Assembly (NCBI RefSeq): GCF_000717595.1
Contig: NZ_JNZO01000008.1
Location: forward strand, 1-64,000
Reading direction: 5' to 3'
From: Streptomyces flavochromogenes
GTDB lineage: Bacteria > Actinomycetota > Actinomycetes > Streptomycetales > Streptomycetaceae
Length of the DNA: 64,000 nt
Position numbers and translations under genes: made by a program. A model generated the notes under the pieces. The model was given only the letters and a program-made list of their open reading frames with translations. It was not told the DNA's origin and did no database searches. Below, one piece after another: positions 24,835 to 28,979 of the stretch; the first letter of the stretch is position 1, and the number at the start of each line of letters is the position of its first letter.

Positions 24835-24917
24835 GTTTTCCGTCTGCCGTGAGTGCCGCCCTGACCAGGCGGTTTCCGGCCGTGCCGAAGACATCACCGG
24901 GGAAAGCGGGTTCCACC

Positions 24918-25703
24918 ATGTTCCGATCCAGGCTGGGCCGACGCAGGGGGACGGCCACTGCCCTGATCGCCGCGGCGTCATTGATGCTGACGCTGGGCGG
25001 TTGCGGAGTCGACCCCGTCACTCCGCAGGACGCCCGGGAGGAGGGCGGAACGGACGACAAGGCGGGGGCCGCCGCCCGTCGCGTCGACTGCGCCAAGGTG
25101 AAGTGCATCGCGCTGACCTTCGACGCCGGGCCGGGCAAGGACACCCCCCGGCTCCTCGACATCCTCAAGGAGAAGAAGGTCCCCGCGACGTTCTTCCTGC
25201 TCGGCAGCAAGCACGTCGACCGTTACCCCCAGGTGGTCAAGCGAATAGCCGACGAGGGCCACGAGGTCGCCAACCACACCTGGACCCATCGGATCCTCAC
25301 CGATCTCGACGAGTCGGAGGTCCGCGACGAACTGTCCCGCACCCAGGACGCCGTCGAGAAGATCACCGGCCGGAGGCCCACCCTCATGCGGCCGCCGCAG
25401 GGCCGTACCGACGGAGCCGTGTCCGACGTCAGCCGGGAGCTCGGGCTCGCCCAGATCCTGTGGAGCATCACCGCCAAGGACTACTCCACCACCGACTCCG
25501 CCCTCATACGGCAGCGCGTGCTCGAGCAGGCGCACGGCGACGGGATCATCCTGCTCCACGACATCTACGACGGCACGGTCCCGGCCGTTCCCTCCATCAT
25601 CGACGAGCTCAAGCGGCAGGGCTTCACCTTCGTGACCGTGCCCGAACTGCTGGCCCCGGGGAAGGCCGAACCGGGCGCCGTGTACCGCCCTGAGAAGGAC
25701 TGA
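24918..25703 (+). CDS. Lipoprotein polysaccharide deacetylase (NodB family)
   Basis: 261 aa. A type II signal peptide (RRRGTATALIAAASLMLTLGGC, lipidated Cys about 31) is followed by a NodB domain: ALTFDAGPGKDT (motif 1), NHTWTHRILT (motif 2, metal histidines), RPPQGRTD (motif 3), and ILLHDIYDGT (motif 5). It would remove acetyl groups from peptidoglycan or another extracellular polysaccharide while tethered to the membrane. The usual TFDDGP is TFDAGP here, so the second Asp, often a metal ligand, is Ala. Some active relatives also vary at this place, so activity is uncertain. ATG 24918 was chosen because it gives the complete lipobox signal. Confidence 0.92.
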   Translation: MFRSRLGRRRGTATALIAAASLMLTLGGCGVDPVTPQDAREEGGTDDKAGAAARRVDCAKVKCIALTFDAGPGKDTPRLLDILKEKKVPATFFLLGSKHVDRYPQVVKRIADEGHEVANHTWTHRILTDLDESEVRDELSRTQDAVEKITGRRPTLMRPPQGRTDGAVSDVSRELGLAQILWSITAKDYSTTDSALIRQRVLEQAHGDGIILLHDIYDGTVPAVPSIIDELKRQGFTFVTVPELLAPGKAEPGAVYRPEKD

Positions 25704-25758
25704 TCAGACCCCCCGAAAACCGGGTGAGCTGACTCACACCGCCCACACGGGCAGGCTC

Positions 25759-25784
25759 GGAACATTCGGGAAACGTCTACCGTT
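25759..25784 (+). promoter_or_regulatory. ECF-sigma-type promoter for the small-RNA candidate
   Basis: GGAAC (25759-25763), a 17-bp spacer and CGTT (25781-25784) fit the -35/-10 pattern of extracytoplasmic-function sigma factors in actinomycetes. Transcription would start near 25790, just before the structured region. Confidence 0.45.
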
Positions 25785-25789
25785 CATAC

Positions 25790-25900
25790 GTATGTGACAC
25801 CGAAGGGGCCCGGTCCCCAAGGTCCCCCCCATGTGGTGACCGCCCTTCGCGTCACGGCAGATCGGCCCCGGTTGGAATCCCCCGTCCAACCGGGGCACTG
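25790..25900 (+). ncRNA. Candidate structured small RNA with C-rich loops and terminator
   Basis: About 110 nt with no plausible reading frame. An outer stem joins GTGAC (25794-25798) to GTCAC, and CGAAGGG (25801-25807) to CCCTTCG. Inside it, GGTC/GACC flanks a run of seven C, with further CCC/CCCC tracts nearby. A second hairpin (GCCCCGGTTGGA 25865-25876 / TCCAACCGGGGC 25885-25896) has a perfect 12-bp stem and a loop containing five C, and looks like a terminator. An ECF-type promoter lies directly upstream. Oligo-C loops recall the actinomycete 6C RNA class, but membership is not proven. An unrelated structured sRNA, or a leader of the downstream lipoprotein gene, is also possible. Confidence 0.6.
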
Positions 25901-26096
25901 TCGTTCCCGGCCACTTTTCCGCGCGGCGCGGACGGCAGAGCACGAAAGCGGCGTGTGAGCGGCGCACACCCCGGCGCGTTCGACCCGTTCGAGTGAGCCC
26001 TGGCATGGTGCCTCCGACCTCGGGCAGTGATCATCCCGAGCGTCGAGTCGATCACTCGCCGGCCGCTCCGACCAGGGACGATCGAAGGGGGACCTC

Positions 26097-26819
26097 ATGT
26101 TCCGCACCACCTCGCGCACCCGTCGCACCCGCCGTGCGCTCGTGACCGCGGCCGCCGCGCTCCTGCTGTCCGGCTGCACCGCGGTCGGGCCCGACGCCCC
26201 CGCGGCCCCCGGCGTTCCCTCCGGCAAGGCGGCCCAGGACGCGCTCCTCAAGGCCGCCGAGCATCGACTCGTCGTGGACTGCCTGAGCGGCCGGGGGCTC
26301 TCGCTGACGTCCAGGCCCCGCGCCCCGGACGAGGAGCGGAAGCTCCGGGCGGCGCTGTTCGGCGCCGGTCCCCGAGAGCTCTCCGTCACCCTCGCCACGG
26401 GCGCCACCGTCACGGCCCACGAGGACGGCTGCGTCGCCGGTGCCCGGCAGCGGCTCTACGGCGACCAGCGACGCTGGTTCCGGGCGCAGGTCGTCGTCGA
26501 CAACCTCCGCGCCGAGGCCCAGGCCCGGATGCGCGCCGACCCCGCTCACCGAGCGGCACTCGCCCGGTGGACCCGCTGCGTGACACCTCCGGACAGCCCC
26601 CGCCCCGACCGTCCCGATCCGGCCGTCGCCACCCGCTGCTCCCGCGAGAGCGGACTCGACGAGGTCCGCGAGCGGCTGGAGGCCGCCGAGCTGGCCACCG
26701 TGCGCGCGCTGCGCCGGGACGAGCTCACCACATACCGGCAGCTGCGCGACCGCGCGCTGCGGCAGGCAGTCGAACTGCCCGCGCCCACCCACCCGCAGAA
26801 AGGCACCACCCTCTCGTGA
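26097..26819 (+). CDS. Secreted lipoprotein, unknown function
   Basis: 240 aa. The signal sequence (RRALVTAAAALLLSGC) ends in a lipobox, with lipidated Cys near residue 26. The mature part is helical and charged, with cysteines at VVDCLSGRG, HEDGCVAG, WTRCVTPP and VATRCSRES that could pair. No known domain. ATG 26097 has GAAGGGGGA upstream. Its stop overlaps the start of the protease-inhibitor gene (GTGA), so the two are co-translated and may act together outside the cell. Confidence 0.82.
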   Translation: MFRTTSRTRRTRRALVTAAAALLLSGCTAVGPDAPAAPGVPSGKAAQDALLKAAEHRLVVDCLSGRGLSLTSRPRAPDEERKLRAALFGAGPRELSVTLATGATVTAHEDGCVAGARQRLYGDQRRWFRAQVVVDNLRAEAQARMRADPAHRAALARWTRCVTPPDSPRPDRPDPAVATRCSRESGLDEVRERLEAAELATVRALRRDELTTYRQLRDRALRQAVELPAPTHPQKGTTLS

Positions 26820-27277: not shown

Positions 27278-28465
27278 TCAGCTCTCGTCGCCCAGCCACA
27301 GGTCGGGTCCGAAGACCTCGTAGTGGATGTCGGCCGCCGCGACACCCCGGCCGACGAGGTCGCCGCGGACCGCGCGAAGGAAGGGCAGCGGCCCGCAGAG
27401 GTACGCCGTGACGTCGGCCGGCAGGTCGAGGGTCGTGACGTCGGCGCGGCCCGTCAGGGCGCCGGAGTCGCGCGGCTCCTCGTACCAGAGGTGCAGCGTT
27501 CCGTGCGGCAGCGCGTCCACGAGCCGCCGCAGTTCGGCGGCGTGGGCGTGGGACGCGGGCGTGCGGTCGGCGTGGACGACGACGACCGGCCGGGTCGAAC
27601 CCGTGGCCGCCAGGTGGTCGAGCATGGCCAGCATCGGGGTGCTGCCGATCCCCGCGGAGGCGAGCAGCAGCGGGCTCTCGCCCTCGGGCAGGACGAGGTC
27701 GCCGAACGGGGCGGAGACCTCCACCGTGTCGCCCGCGCGCGCGTGGTCGTGCAACCAGGACGAGACCTCACCGGCCGGGTCGCCGGCGACCCGCTTGACG
27801 GTGATCCGCCACTGCGGGTGACCGGGCGCGGCGGACAGGCTGTACTGGCGGATCTGCCGGGCACCGTCGGGCAGGGTGACCTGGACGCTCACGTACTGGC
27901 CCGGCCGGAACGCTGCCGTGGGCGTCCCGTCGGTGTGCCGCAGGACGAAGGAGACGGTGTCGGGCGTCTCCTCCCGCCGCTCGGCGATCTCCATCGTCCG
28001 CCAGACCTGGCCCTCGGCGACCCCGGTCTGCTGGTAGAGCCGAGTCTCGACCGCGATCAAGGCGTTGGCCATCAGCCAGTACACCTCGTCCCAGGCCCGT
28101 GCGACCTCGGGCGTGACCGCGTCGCCGAGGACCTCGACGATGGCGGCGAAGAGGTGCTCGTGCACCGTCTTGTACTGCGCGGAGGTGACGCCGAGCGAGG
28201 CGTGCTTGTGGGCAATCCGCGACAGCATCACGTCGGGACGCTCGTCCGGCCGCTCGACGAGGGCGACGGCGAAGGCCGCTATGGAGCCGGCGAGTGCCTG
28301 CCGCTGCTCGCCGCTCGCCTGGTTGCCCCGGTTGAACAGGTCGCGCAGGAGCTCGGGGTGGGCGGCGAAGAGGCGCCCGTAGAACCGCTCGGTGATCCTG
28401 TCGAGCGCGCCTCCGACGGCGGGCAGGGTGGCGCGGACGACGGGGACGGCCTGCTCGGACAGCAT
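27278..28465 (-). CDS. hmp: Flavohaemoprotein: nitric oxide dioxygenase
   Basis: 395 aa. The globin domain (1-140) has FNRGNQASGEQRQALA with the proximal-type region KTVHEHLFAAI, and the distal residues precede it. The FAD domain has the RQYSLSAAPG binding motif (about 205). The NAD domain has ASAGIGSTPMLAMLDHL and YLCGPLPFLRAV, ending YEVFGPDLW. It converts NO and O2 to nitrate with NAD(P)H, protecting against nitrosative stress. ATG 28465 has GAGAG upstream. It lies 70 bp downstream of nsrR on the same strand and has its own NsrR-like box. Confidence 0.95.
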   Translation of the reverse strand: MLSEQAVPVVRATLPAVGGALDRITERFYGRLFAAHPELLRDLFNRGNQASGEQRQALAGSIAAFAVALVERPDERPDVMLSRIAHKHASLGVTSAQYKTVHEHLFAAIVEVLGDAVTPEVARAWDEVYWLMANALIAVETRLYQQTGVAEGQVWRTMEIAERREETPDTVSFVLRHTDGTPTAAFRPGQYVSVQVTLPDGARQIRQYSLSAAPGHPQWRITVKRVAGDPAGEVSSWLHDHARAGDTVEVSAPFGDLVLPEGESPLLLASAGIGSTPMLAMLDHLAATGSTRPVVVVHADRTPASHAHAAELRRLVDALPHGTLHLWYEEPRDSGALTGRADVTTLDLPADVTAYLCGPLPFLRAVRGDLVGRGVAAADIHYEVFGPDLWLGDES

Positions 28466-28475
28466 GGCAACTCTC

Positions 28476-28499
28476 AATCTGGTAGATGATCTGCGTATT
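28476..28499 (-). promoter_or_regulatory. Probable NsrR box upstream of hmp
   Basis: Read on the minus strand, AATACGCAGATCATCTACCAG is close, as far as I recall it, to the NsrR-protected site upstream of hmpA1 in S. coelicolor. A related sequence lies in front of nsrR. It sits 11-34 bp before the ATG, where binding would block transcription or ribosome access. Confidence 0.55.
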
Positions 28500-28535
28500 T
28501 AAAAGCGTGCCCGCGCGCCGTCGGGCGCGTACGGC

Positions 28536-28979
28536 TCAGAGGGTGGGTCGCGGGGTGAGGGAGAGCAGCAGGGGGCCGGTCGGGGATTCGACCAGCTCCG
28601 CCACGGTCAGCGGGTCGAGTGCGCGGTAGAACGCCTCCTGCGCCTCGCGCAGCGCCCCCCGCAGTCGGCAGGCGGTCCGCAGGGGGCACGGCGGGTCGCC
28701 TTCGCAGGCGACGACCTCCTCCTCGCCCTCCAGGGTGCGGGCCAGCCAGCCCACCGAGGAGCGGCGACCCCGTTCCGTGAGGGCCAGACCGCCGCCACGG
28801 CCGCGCCGCGCCTCGACCACGCCCAGGTGCTGGAGCCGGGTGACCACCTTCGCCATGTGGGCGTAGGGCACGTCCATCGAGTCCGCCACCTCGCGGGTGG
28901 TGACGGATTCCTCCGGTGCGGTGACCGCCAGGCGCATCACGGCGCGGAGTGCCAGGTCGGTGAACTTCGTCAGCCTCAC
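28536..28979 (-). CDS. nsrR: NsrR: Rrf2-family nitric-oxide-sensing repressor
   Basis: 147 aa. Rrf2 winged helix (MRLTKFTDLALRAVMRLAV, VTTREVADSMDVPYAHMAKVV) and three cysteines in ACEGDPPCPLRTAC with spacing 6 and 6, the same as the [4Fe-4S] ligands of S. coelicolor NsrR. NO damages the cluster and releases repression of hmp. It is upstream of hmp on the same strand, the classic arrangement. Confidence 0.93.
   Translation of the reverse strand: MRLTKFTDLALRAVMRLAVTAPEESVTTREVADSMDVPYAHMAKVVTRLQHLGVVEARRGRGGGLALTERGRRSSVGWLARTLEGEEEVVACEGDPPCPLRTACRLRGALREAQEAFYRALDPLTVAELVESPTGPLLLSLTPRPTL

Follow-up and report, generated by a model that had tools for sequence, protein, structure and literature searches.

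A conserved structured RNA element of Streptomyces with C-rich loops, an ECF-type promoter and a Crp/Fnr-type operator: a candidate small RNA

Overview

An intergenic gap in a 64,000-nt stretch of DNA from Streptomyces flavochromogenes (the window) contains an RNA element that is conserved and covaries among its relatives, and that is preceded by an ECF-type core promoter and a Crp/Fnr-type operator. The element is probably a small, independently transcribed, structured sRNA under ECF and Crp-type control, with C-rich loops acting on G-rich ribosome-binding sites. More tentatively, it may represent a Streptomycetaceae sRNA family not described before, with two inputs at its promoter (an ECF core plus a Crp/Fnr operator at -61 to -65). 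In this reading the small chromosomal form would be associated with a cyclic-nucleotide-binding protein and the long form would have spread by plasmids, so that plasmids would carry a host-signal-driven regulator of host translation. The initial annotation of this DNA had proposed a structured RNA with an ECF-type promoter that could belong to the 6C family or another known one, or be undescribed; the conserved, covarying RNA and the ECF-type core have held up, while membership in 6C or any other Rfam family has not. The Crp/Fnr-type operator, the size classes, the paralogues, the cyclic-nucleotide-binding neighbour and the plasmid-borne long class go beyond that annotation.

To our knowledge, the control circuit or the target is known for only a handful of Streptomyces sRNAs; the family described here may link gene control to cAMP-type and stress signals. 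Its operator occupies one fixed position on chromosomes and plasmids, which makes it testable whether Crp or a relative acts via Streptomyces sRNAs. Published work portrays Crp as regulating antibiotic production globally, with its network as a starting point for strain improvement (PMC10033298).

Locus and fold of the RNA

The gap spans positions 25704-26096, which agrees with the 393 bp noted initially. The deacetylase gene before it, the RNA element and the putative lipoprotein gene after it are all on the + strand. The features are:

24849..25703, + strand: polysaccharide deacetylase gene, upstream neighbour (Pfam PF01522, 9.4e-43)
25724..25737, + strand: Crp/Fnr-type operator GTGAGCTGACTCAC (GTG-N8-CAC), assigned from its recurrence among members and from published Crp/GlxR motifs
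25759..25763, + strand: -35 element GGAAC of the ECF-type promoter, read from the sequence and from class counts
25781..25784, + strand: -10 element CGTT, read in the same way
25794..25898, + strand: predicted small RNA of about 105 nt (match of covariance model R1 at 25791-25899, 123.2 bits)
25794..25855, + strand: stem 1, from pair counts in alignments A3 (sequence-only) and A5 (model-fitted)
25794-25798 with 25851-25855, + strand: outer part of stem 1, GTGAC/GTCAC
25801-25807 with 25843-25849, + strand: CGAAGGG/CCCTTCG of stem 1
25811-25814 with 25839-25842, + strand: inner part of stem 1, CGGT/ACCG
25824..25830, + strand: run of seven C, with AGGU just before it
25865..25896, + strand: 3' hairpin, 12 bp here and 11 bp conserved (arms 25865-25876 and 25885-25896)
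26087..26094, + strand: candidate target site GGGGGACC, just before the ATG of the gene at 26097 and complementary to GGUCCCCC of the RNA (25821-25828)
26097..26819, + strand: putative lipoprotein gene of 240 aa, downstream neighbour (LLSGC motif, named by eye)

The motifs on which the initial annotation was based are all present, namely the two promoter elements with 17 bases between them, the GTGAC/GTCAC and CGAAGGG/CCCTTCG helices, the seven C in an inner loop and the perfect 12-bp hairpin, the 8-nt loop of which (ATCCCCCG) contains CCCCC. Searches of Pfam and NCBIfam gave no match for the downstream open reading frame at 26097-26819. Further along the window, on the - strand at 27278-28979, a flavohaemoprotein-like gene with globin, FAD and NAD domains adjoins an Rrf2-type regulator, which is the arrangement of nitric-oxide detoxification genes.

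The RNA gene would span 25794-25898, with a transcript of about 105 nt beginning with the base of stem 1 and ending in the GC-rich hairpin; the 5' end is our inference and is uncertain by about 3 nt. The hairpin presumably serves both as terminator and as pairing loop, and a second C run of the window copy lies inside stem 1. The predicted transcript folds at -58.0 kcal/mol, compared to a mean of -42.1 (sd 3.41) for shuffled sequences, giving a z of -4.66 with none of 200 shuffles equally good. The longer span considered initially, 25759-25900, includes the promoter and has a weaker fold (z -2.30, 4 of 200 shuffles). Within 25650-26120 a simple consensus scan, blind to ECF promoters, detected neither a sigma-70-type promoter nor a terminator having a T run; the hairpin of the window copy has no T run. 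Open reading frames on the minus strand, at 25734-26006 and 25784-26413, overlap the region. Across the 28 members of the short class the C run in stem 1 has between 4 and 10 C and the total length lies between 107 and 113 nt, which argues against a coding frame.

Structure and covariation

Conservation and covariation provide stronger evidence for the structure than fold energy does. Covariance model R1 was built from A3, a MAFFT alignment of the 28 short-class sequences made without structure, in which 98.4% of cells are paired in the named structure. Five pairs are changed on both sides, with 11 such cells; none of 500 shuffles attains any of the five measures, and sliding the partners by 1-3 columns lowers the pairing to 29-52%. 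In a sequence-only alignment of 54 small members (A6), RNAalifold recovers the outer stem, an inner stem and the 3' hairpin, with both-side changes in 6 of 22 pairs, and in a sequence-only alignment of 44 long members (A7) 14 of 45 pairs have both-side changes. The alignment of 88 members (A5) was fitted to the covariance model and is hence biased towards the model structure; there, 18 of 27 pairs have both-side changes, in 163 cells compared to 40.3 in shuffles.

Helix 4, the 3' hairpin, is paired in 100% of cells in both the 28 and the 88 sequences. The inner part of stem 1 is weaker, at 87-91% paired in A5, and together with the inner C-run region it varies between size classes; an early alifold run of a mixed set placed part of stem 1 in a different register. 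The proposal of a structured RNA is thus borne out by a conserved, intergenic element with stems that covary in A3, A5, A6 and A7, and the comparison across Streptomyces that had been suggested as a check, with missing compensating mutations as the outcome that would count against it, does reveal compensating changes.

Another explanation is that the element is merely the transcription terminator of the deacetylase gene, accompanied by chance motifs. It does come after that gene with the same orientation, and a strong GC hairpin closes it. On the other hand, promoter, operator and stem 1 show both conservation and covariation, and there are family members without a deacetylase, making this explanation very improbable.

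Promoter and operator

Promoter positions were measured from the first base of the stem, the G at 25794. All 28 short members have GGAAC-N17-CGTT, as do 29 of the 37 long ones and 4 of the 53 minis; none of the 10 mids has it. The promoter in the window conforms to GGAAC-N17-18-cGTT, the published sigma-H/sigma-E consensus of C. glutamicum (PMC10012870), so that the ECF call made initially stands for the short class, all members of which keep the core.

The centre of the window operator is 63.5 bases before G 25794 and 61.5 bases before A 25792. Among the 128 members compared, 109 have GTG-N8-CAC centred between -65 and -61, while dinucleotide shuffles lead one to expect 0.4; by class, these are 47 of 53 mini, 9 of 10 mid, 27 of 28 short and 26 of 37 long members. 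In 92 of the 128 (41 mini, 9 mid, 23 short, 19 long) the centre is at exactly -63, and 19 have no GTG-N8-CAC in the -65 to -61 interval. The published Crp motif of S. coelicolor is GTG(N)6GNCAC and that of GlxR is GTG(N)8CAC (PMC10033298). The strict motif GTG(N)6GNCAC is found at -65 to -61 in 43 of 53 mini and 9 of 10 mid members, but in a single short member out of 28 and in 5 of the 37 long ones. The window site, GTGAGCTGACTCAC, does not match the strict S. coelicolor motif, which has G at the tenth position, and it does match the wider Crp/GlxR type, GTG(N)8CAC at a fixed distance from the promoter.

If A 25792 is taken as the start, the window operator is centred at -61.5, the classical class I distance for E. 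coli CRP. A Crp site at an ECF promoter is unusual. An ECF core combined with an operator at class I distance (about -61 to -65) implies that the RNA should be produced when signals from an ECF sigma factor and a Crp-type regulator coincide. GGAAC is missing from most minis, but these have kept the operator best; their promoter sequences suggest that the smaller members moved from sigma to activator dependence. A pattern search of the genome to which the window belongs for the operator plus CGTTC gave six places, and only the window locus also has GGAAC; operator plus CGTTC alone is therefore not specific. The best of the Crp/Fnr-like genes in this genome scores 103.6 bits, under the cut-off of 266 for E. 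coli CRP.

Distribution and size classes

With the gap as blastn query, matches were found in 46 of 199 Streptomyces genomes. The element lies behind the relative of the deacetylase gene in 38 of the 80 loci examined, the best of 303; these are L002-L038 and L076, including L034, for which the match covers the hairpin only. At E <= 0.01, model R1 picks out 227 of 392 Streptomyces genomes, or 219 of the 380 good ones, and model R2, made from 88 members, reaches E <= 0.01 in 121 of 297 genomes of the bacterial family (4 of 17 genera) and E <= 0.001 in 24 of the 394 genomes searched from the class, a single genus out of 137 accounting for every one; all these genome counts are lower bounds, searches of more than 40 genomes applying stricter filters. 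Among the genomes searched, the RNA family was found only in Streptomycetaceae, and in addition on plasmids.

The set of 128 examined comprises the window copy and 127 relatives, taken from 150 places listed among the R1 matches. It falls into 53 mini members of 74-86 nt, 10 mid members of 94-97 nt, 28 short members of 107-113 nt, to which the window copy belongs, and 37 long members of 158-162 nt. The members share descent, and the counts of conservation given here are counts of non-independent events. Up to four copies occur in one genome (G193; also G177 and G291), and the genome from which the window comes has one (R2, E <= 1). On one contig of 10,266,650 bases (G091:C1), two copies, at 101036-101119 and 10165532-10165615, are mirror-symmetric, 101,036 bases from each contig end; this symmetry places them in terminal inverted repeats.

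Neighbouring genes and plasmid copies

A gene with a product starting MTKAI or MTKPI lies 108-194 bases downstream of at least 42 of the 63 mini and mid members; the count rests on a fixed pattern, and the remaining 21 members may have the gene too. One protein of this type (L144:4288-4740) has a cyclic-nucleotide-binding domain (PF00027, 1.2e-12). It is 151 aa long and has no match to a DNA-binding domain in Pfam. The ribosome-binding site of the cyclic-nucleotide-binding gene is GGCGAGGAG or alike and not GGGGGA, so this gene is no obvious target. At L142, a SigB/SigF/SigG-type sigma factor gene (TIGR02980, 276.5 bits) lies upstream. A search of viral contigs for the cyclic-nucleotide-binding protein found none.

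Such neighbours would fit a cis-acting leader, with transcription starting at the same promoter, mostly stopping at the hairpin and reading through into the next gene, which is the lipoprotein gene here and the cyclic-nucleotide-binding gene for small members. Downstream of the mini and mid members counted above, the same gene follows within a few hundred bases at most, and the deacetylase, RNA and lipoprotein units are on one strand; transcripts of S. avermitilis starting at most 500 bp from a gene were filed as cis-regulatory in one study (PMC8780764). Against it, the long class is flanked by differing genes, in the loci with gene calls and on plasmids, some of which point towards the RNA. 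In addition, a block, CGGCGCGTTCGACCCGTTCGAGTGAGC, is conserved between the hairpin and the lipoprotein gene in 17 aligned loci, and by its sequence it looks like the lipoprotein gene's own promoter region. We regard the leader as unlikely and favour the independently transcribed sRNA.

The block CGGCGCGTTCGACCCGTTCGAGTGAGC, at about 25973-26000, contains CGTTCGA twice, nine bases apart, and it is followed in nearer relatives by an inverted repeat, AGTGATC/GATCACT. The region is possibly a promoter or an operator of the lipoprotein gene.

The surroundings of long members vary among the loci having gene calls. A long-member query found 61 places in 49 plasmid records, 46 from Streptomyces, two from [Kitasatospora] papulosa and one from Nonomuraea. 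All eight plasmid records retrieved contain the RNA according to R2, and in seven of the eight copies the operator lies between -62 and -65 and GGAAC between -35 and -37. In the seven annotated records, no annotated feature overlaps the RNA, and in three of them (L282, L286 and L289) genes for ParA and/or ParB are at most 6 kb away from it. On two plasmids, L282 and L285, a sigma factor gene lies within 2.5 kb of the long member. Provided that the plasmid copies are active, host translation would have a plasmid-borne regulator. Searching plasmids for the short class gave no match and for a mini member partial matches only, in 7 records; searching phages for the long class gave none. A small protein encoded in the long class, with an ATG frame in the central hairpin, was considered and rejected, as L155, L188 and L231 lose the ATG; in all three, the central stem is kept through compensating changes.

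C-rich loops and candidate targets

The loop region of the 3' hairpin contains CCCCC in 127 of 128 members, a C-rich motif in a presumed terminator loop, of the kind found in LhrC and RepG. The C-rich loops, that of the 3' hairpin above all, probably pair with G-rich ribosome-binding regions of the GGGGGA type, and such pairing would block translation.

The near-invariance of this loop in differing contexts would also be expected of a fixed ligand, and the RNA might be a decoy, with C-rich loops that bind a protein, in the manner of 6S or CsrB, and not mRNA. However, the neighbourhood suggests no protein partner, and C-rich loops with proven mRNA targets are known (PMC4132741, PMC8295292). A decoy appears improbable to us, and pairing with mRNA remains the preferred mode of action.

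The nearest candidate for such pairing is the putative lipoprotein gene, the start region of which reads GAAGGGGGACCTCATG. In the 39 syntenic rows (the window, L002-L038 and L076), GGGGGA precedes a possible start in 23 and GGGGA in two more; in the other 14 neither was found before a start within about 300 bases, in some cases because the contig stops short or the hairpin pattern had no match. Preceded by A, GGGGGACCNNATG is present at two places in the genome of the window, as is the control, and is thus neither rarer nor commoner than chance. G-rich starts are common: GGGGGA was seen in 28 of the 503 start regions taken from the loci used, where starts were picked by Shine-Dalgarno strength. 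Duplex energies calculated for the 30 genes accepted by the gene caller in the window, among which the gene at 26097 is not included, show that several start regions pair strongly, and none is singled out. The RNA base beside the C run changes in L013, L017, L020 and L025, with no matching change before the start codon, and extended pairing between the RNA and the next gene shows no covariation outside the core. On this sequence evidence, the gene at 26097 is a candidate target only.

Comparison with known RNAs

Searching the whole window against Rfam 15 gave a single match at gathering score, a ZMP/ZTP riboswitch at 512-620 (51.9 bits, gathering score 39), and 20 family loci of all size classes gave no family at gathering score; the suggestion that the element might belong to another known family thus finds no counterpart in Rfam. 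Neither the window nor the 20 loci matched scr5239 or the other Streptomyces sRNA families in Rfam. The open-licence PubMed Central literature searched contained no mention of the family. By these tests the family is absent from Rfam 15, and single members may already be recorded as unnamed transcripts in RNA-seq papers and their supplementary tables.

Identity with the 6C RNA (RF01066), the family named initially, was rejected, the score at the element being 18.3 bits (E 5.2) and the gathering score 47. Like the element, 6C RNA is actinobacterial and has two C-rich loops, which is what speaks for a diverged 6C RNA; the element has a different stem 1 and its own promoter with operator. Elsewhere in the genome of the window (L001, G000:C27:49940-50015) there is another 6C match, which at 46.2 bits is also slightly under the cut-off. 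With this and the low score at the element, we consider a diverged 6C RNA extremely improbable. The 6C-like RNA at L001 is about 17 kb from the best Crp-like gene of this genome (L296, G000:C27:66816-67358, 103.6 bits).

Another RNA considered was scr5239 of S. coelicolor, a Streptomyces sRNA that was suspected for its 159 nt, near the length of the long class. As published, it has five consecutive stem-loops and a DasR-controlled promoter, unlike the family (PMC4365011, PMC7025569), and it is listed as Rfam family RF02605 (PMC8079986); it was rejected by published structure, promoter and Rfam. Two further sets of expressed Streptomyces sRNAs, scr1434/sar6912/svr1031 and scr5583/sar2652/svr5279, have C-rich loops and were compared by their published description (PMC3765725).

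Two RNAs from outside the actinobacteria are alike in anatomy. RepG of Helicobacter pylori differs from the family in being a single gene, of another phylum and with another structure, its kinship having been compared only through Rfam; like the family, it has a C-rich loop in a terminator hairpin, presumed in the case of the family, and in RepG this C/U-rich loop pairs with G-rich mRNA leaders (PMC8295292). LhrC of Listeria differs in being under LisRK two-component control, in its UCCC motif flanked by U-rich sequence and in having no Crp-type site (PMC4132741). It shares with the family the presence of several paralogous copies and of C-rich motifs both within a stem-loop and in the loop of the terminator, and its control by cell-envelope stress may be listed as a further likeness; its C-rich loops, that of the terminator included, pair with mRNA (PMC4132741). 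LhrC and RepG show that terminator loops can act by pairing with mRNA, and the RNA resembles the two by anatomy, a likeness that need not imply kinship.
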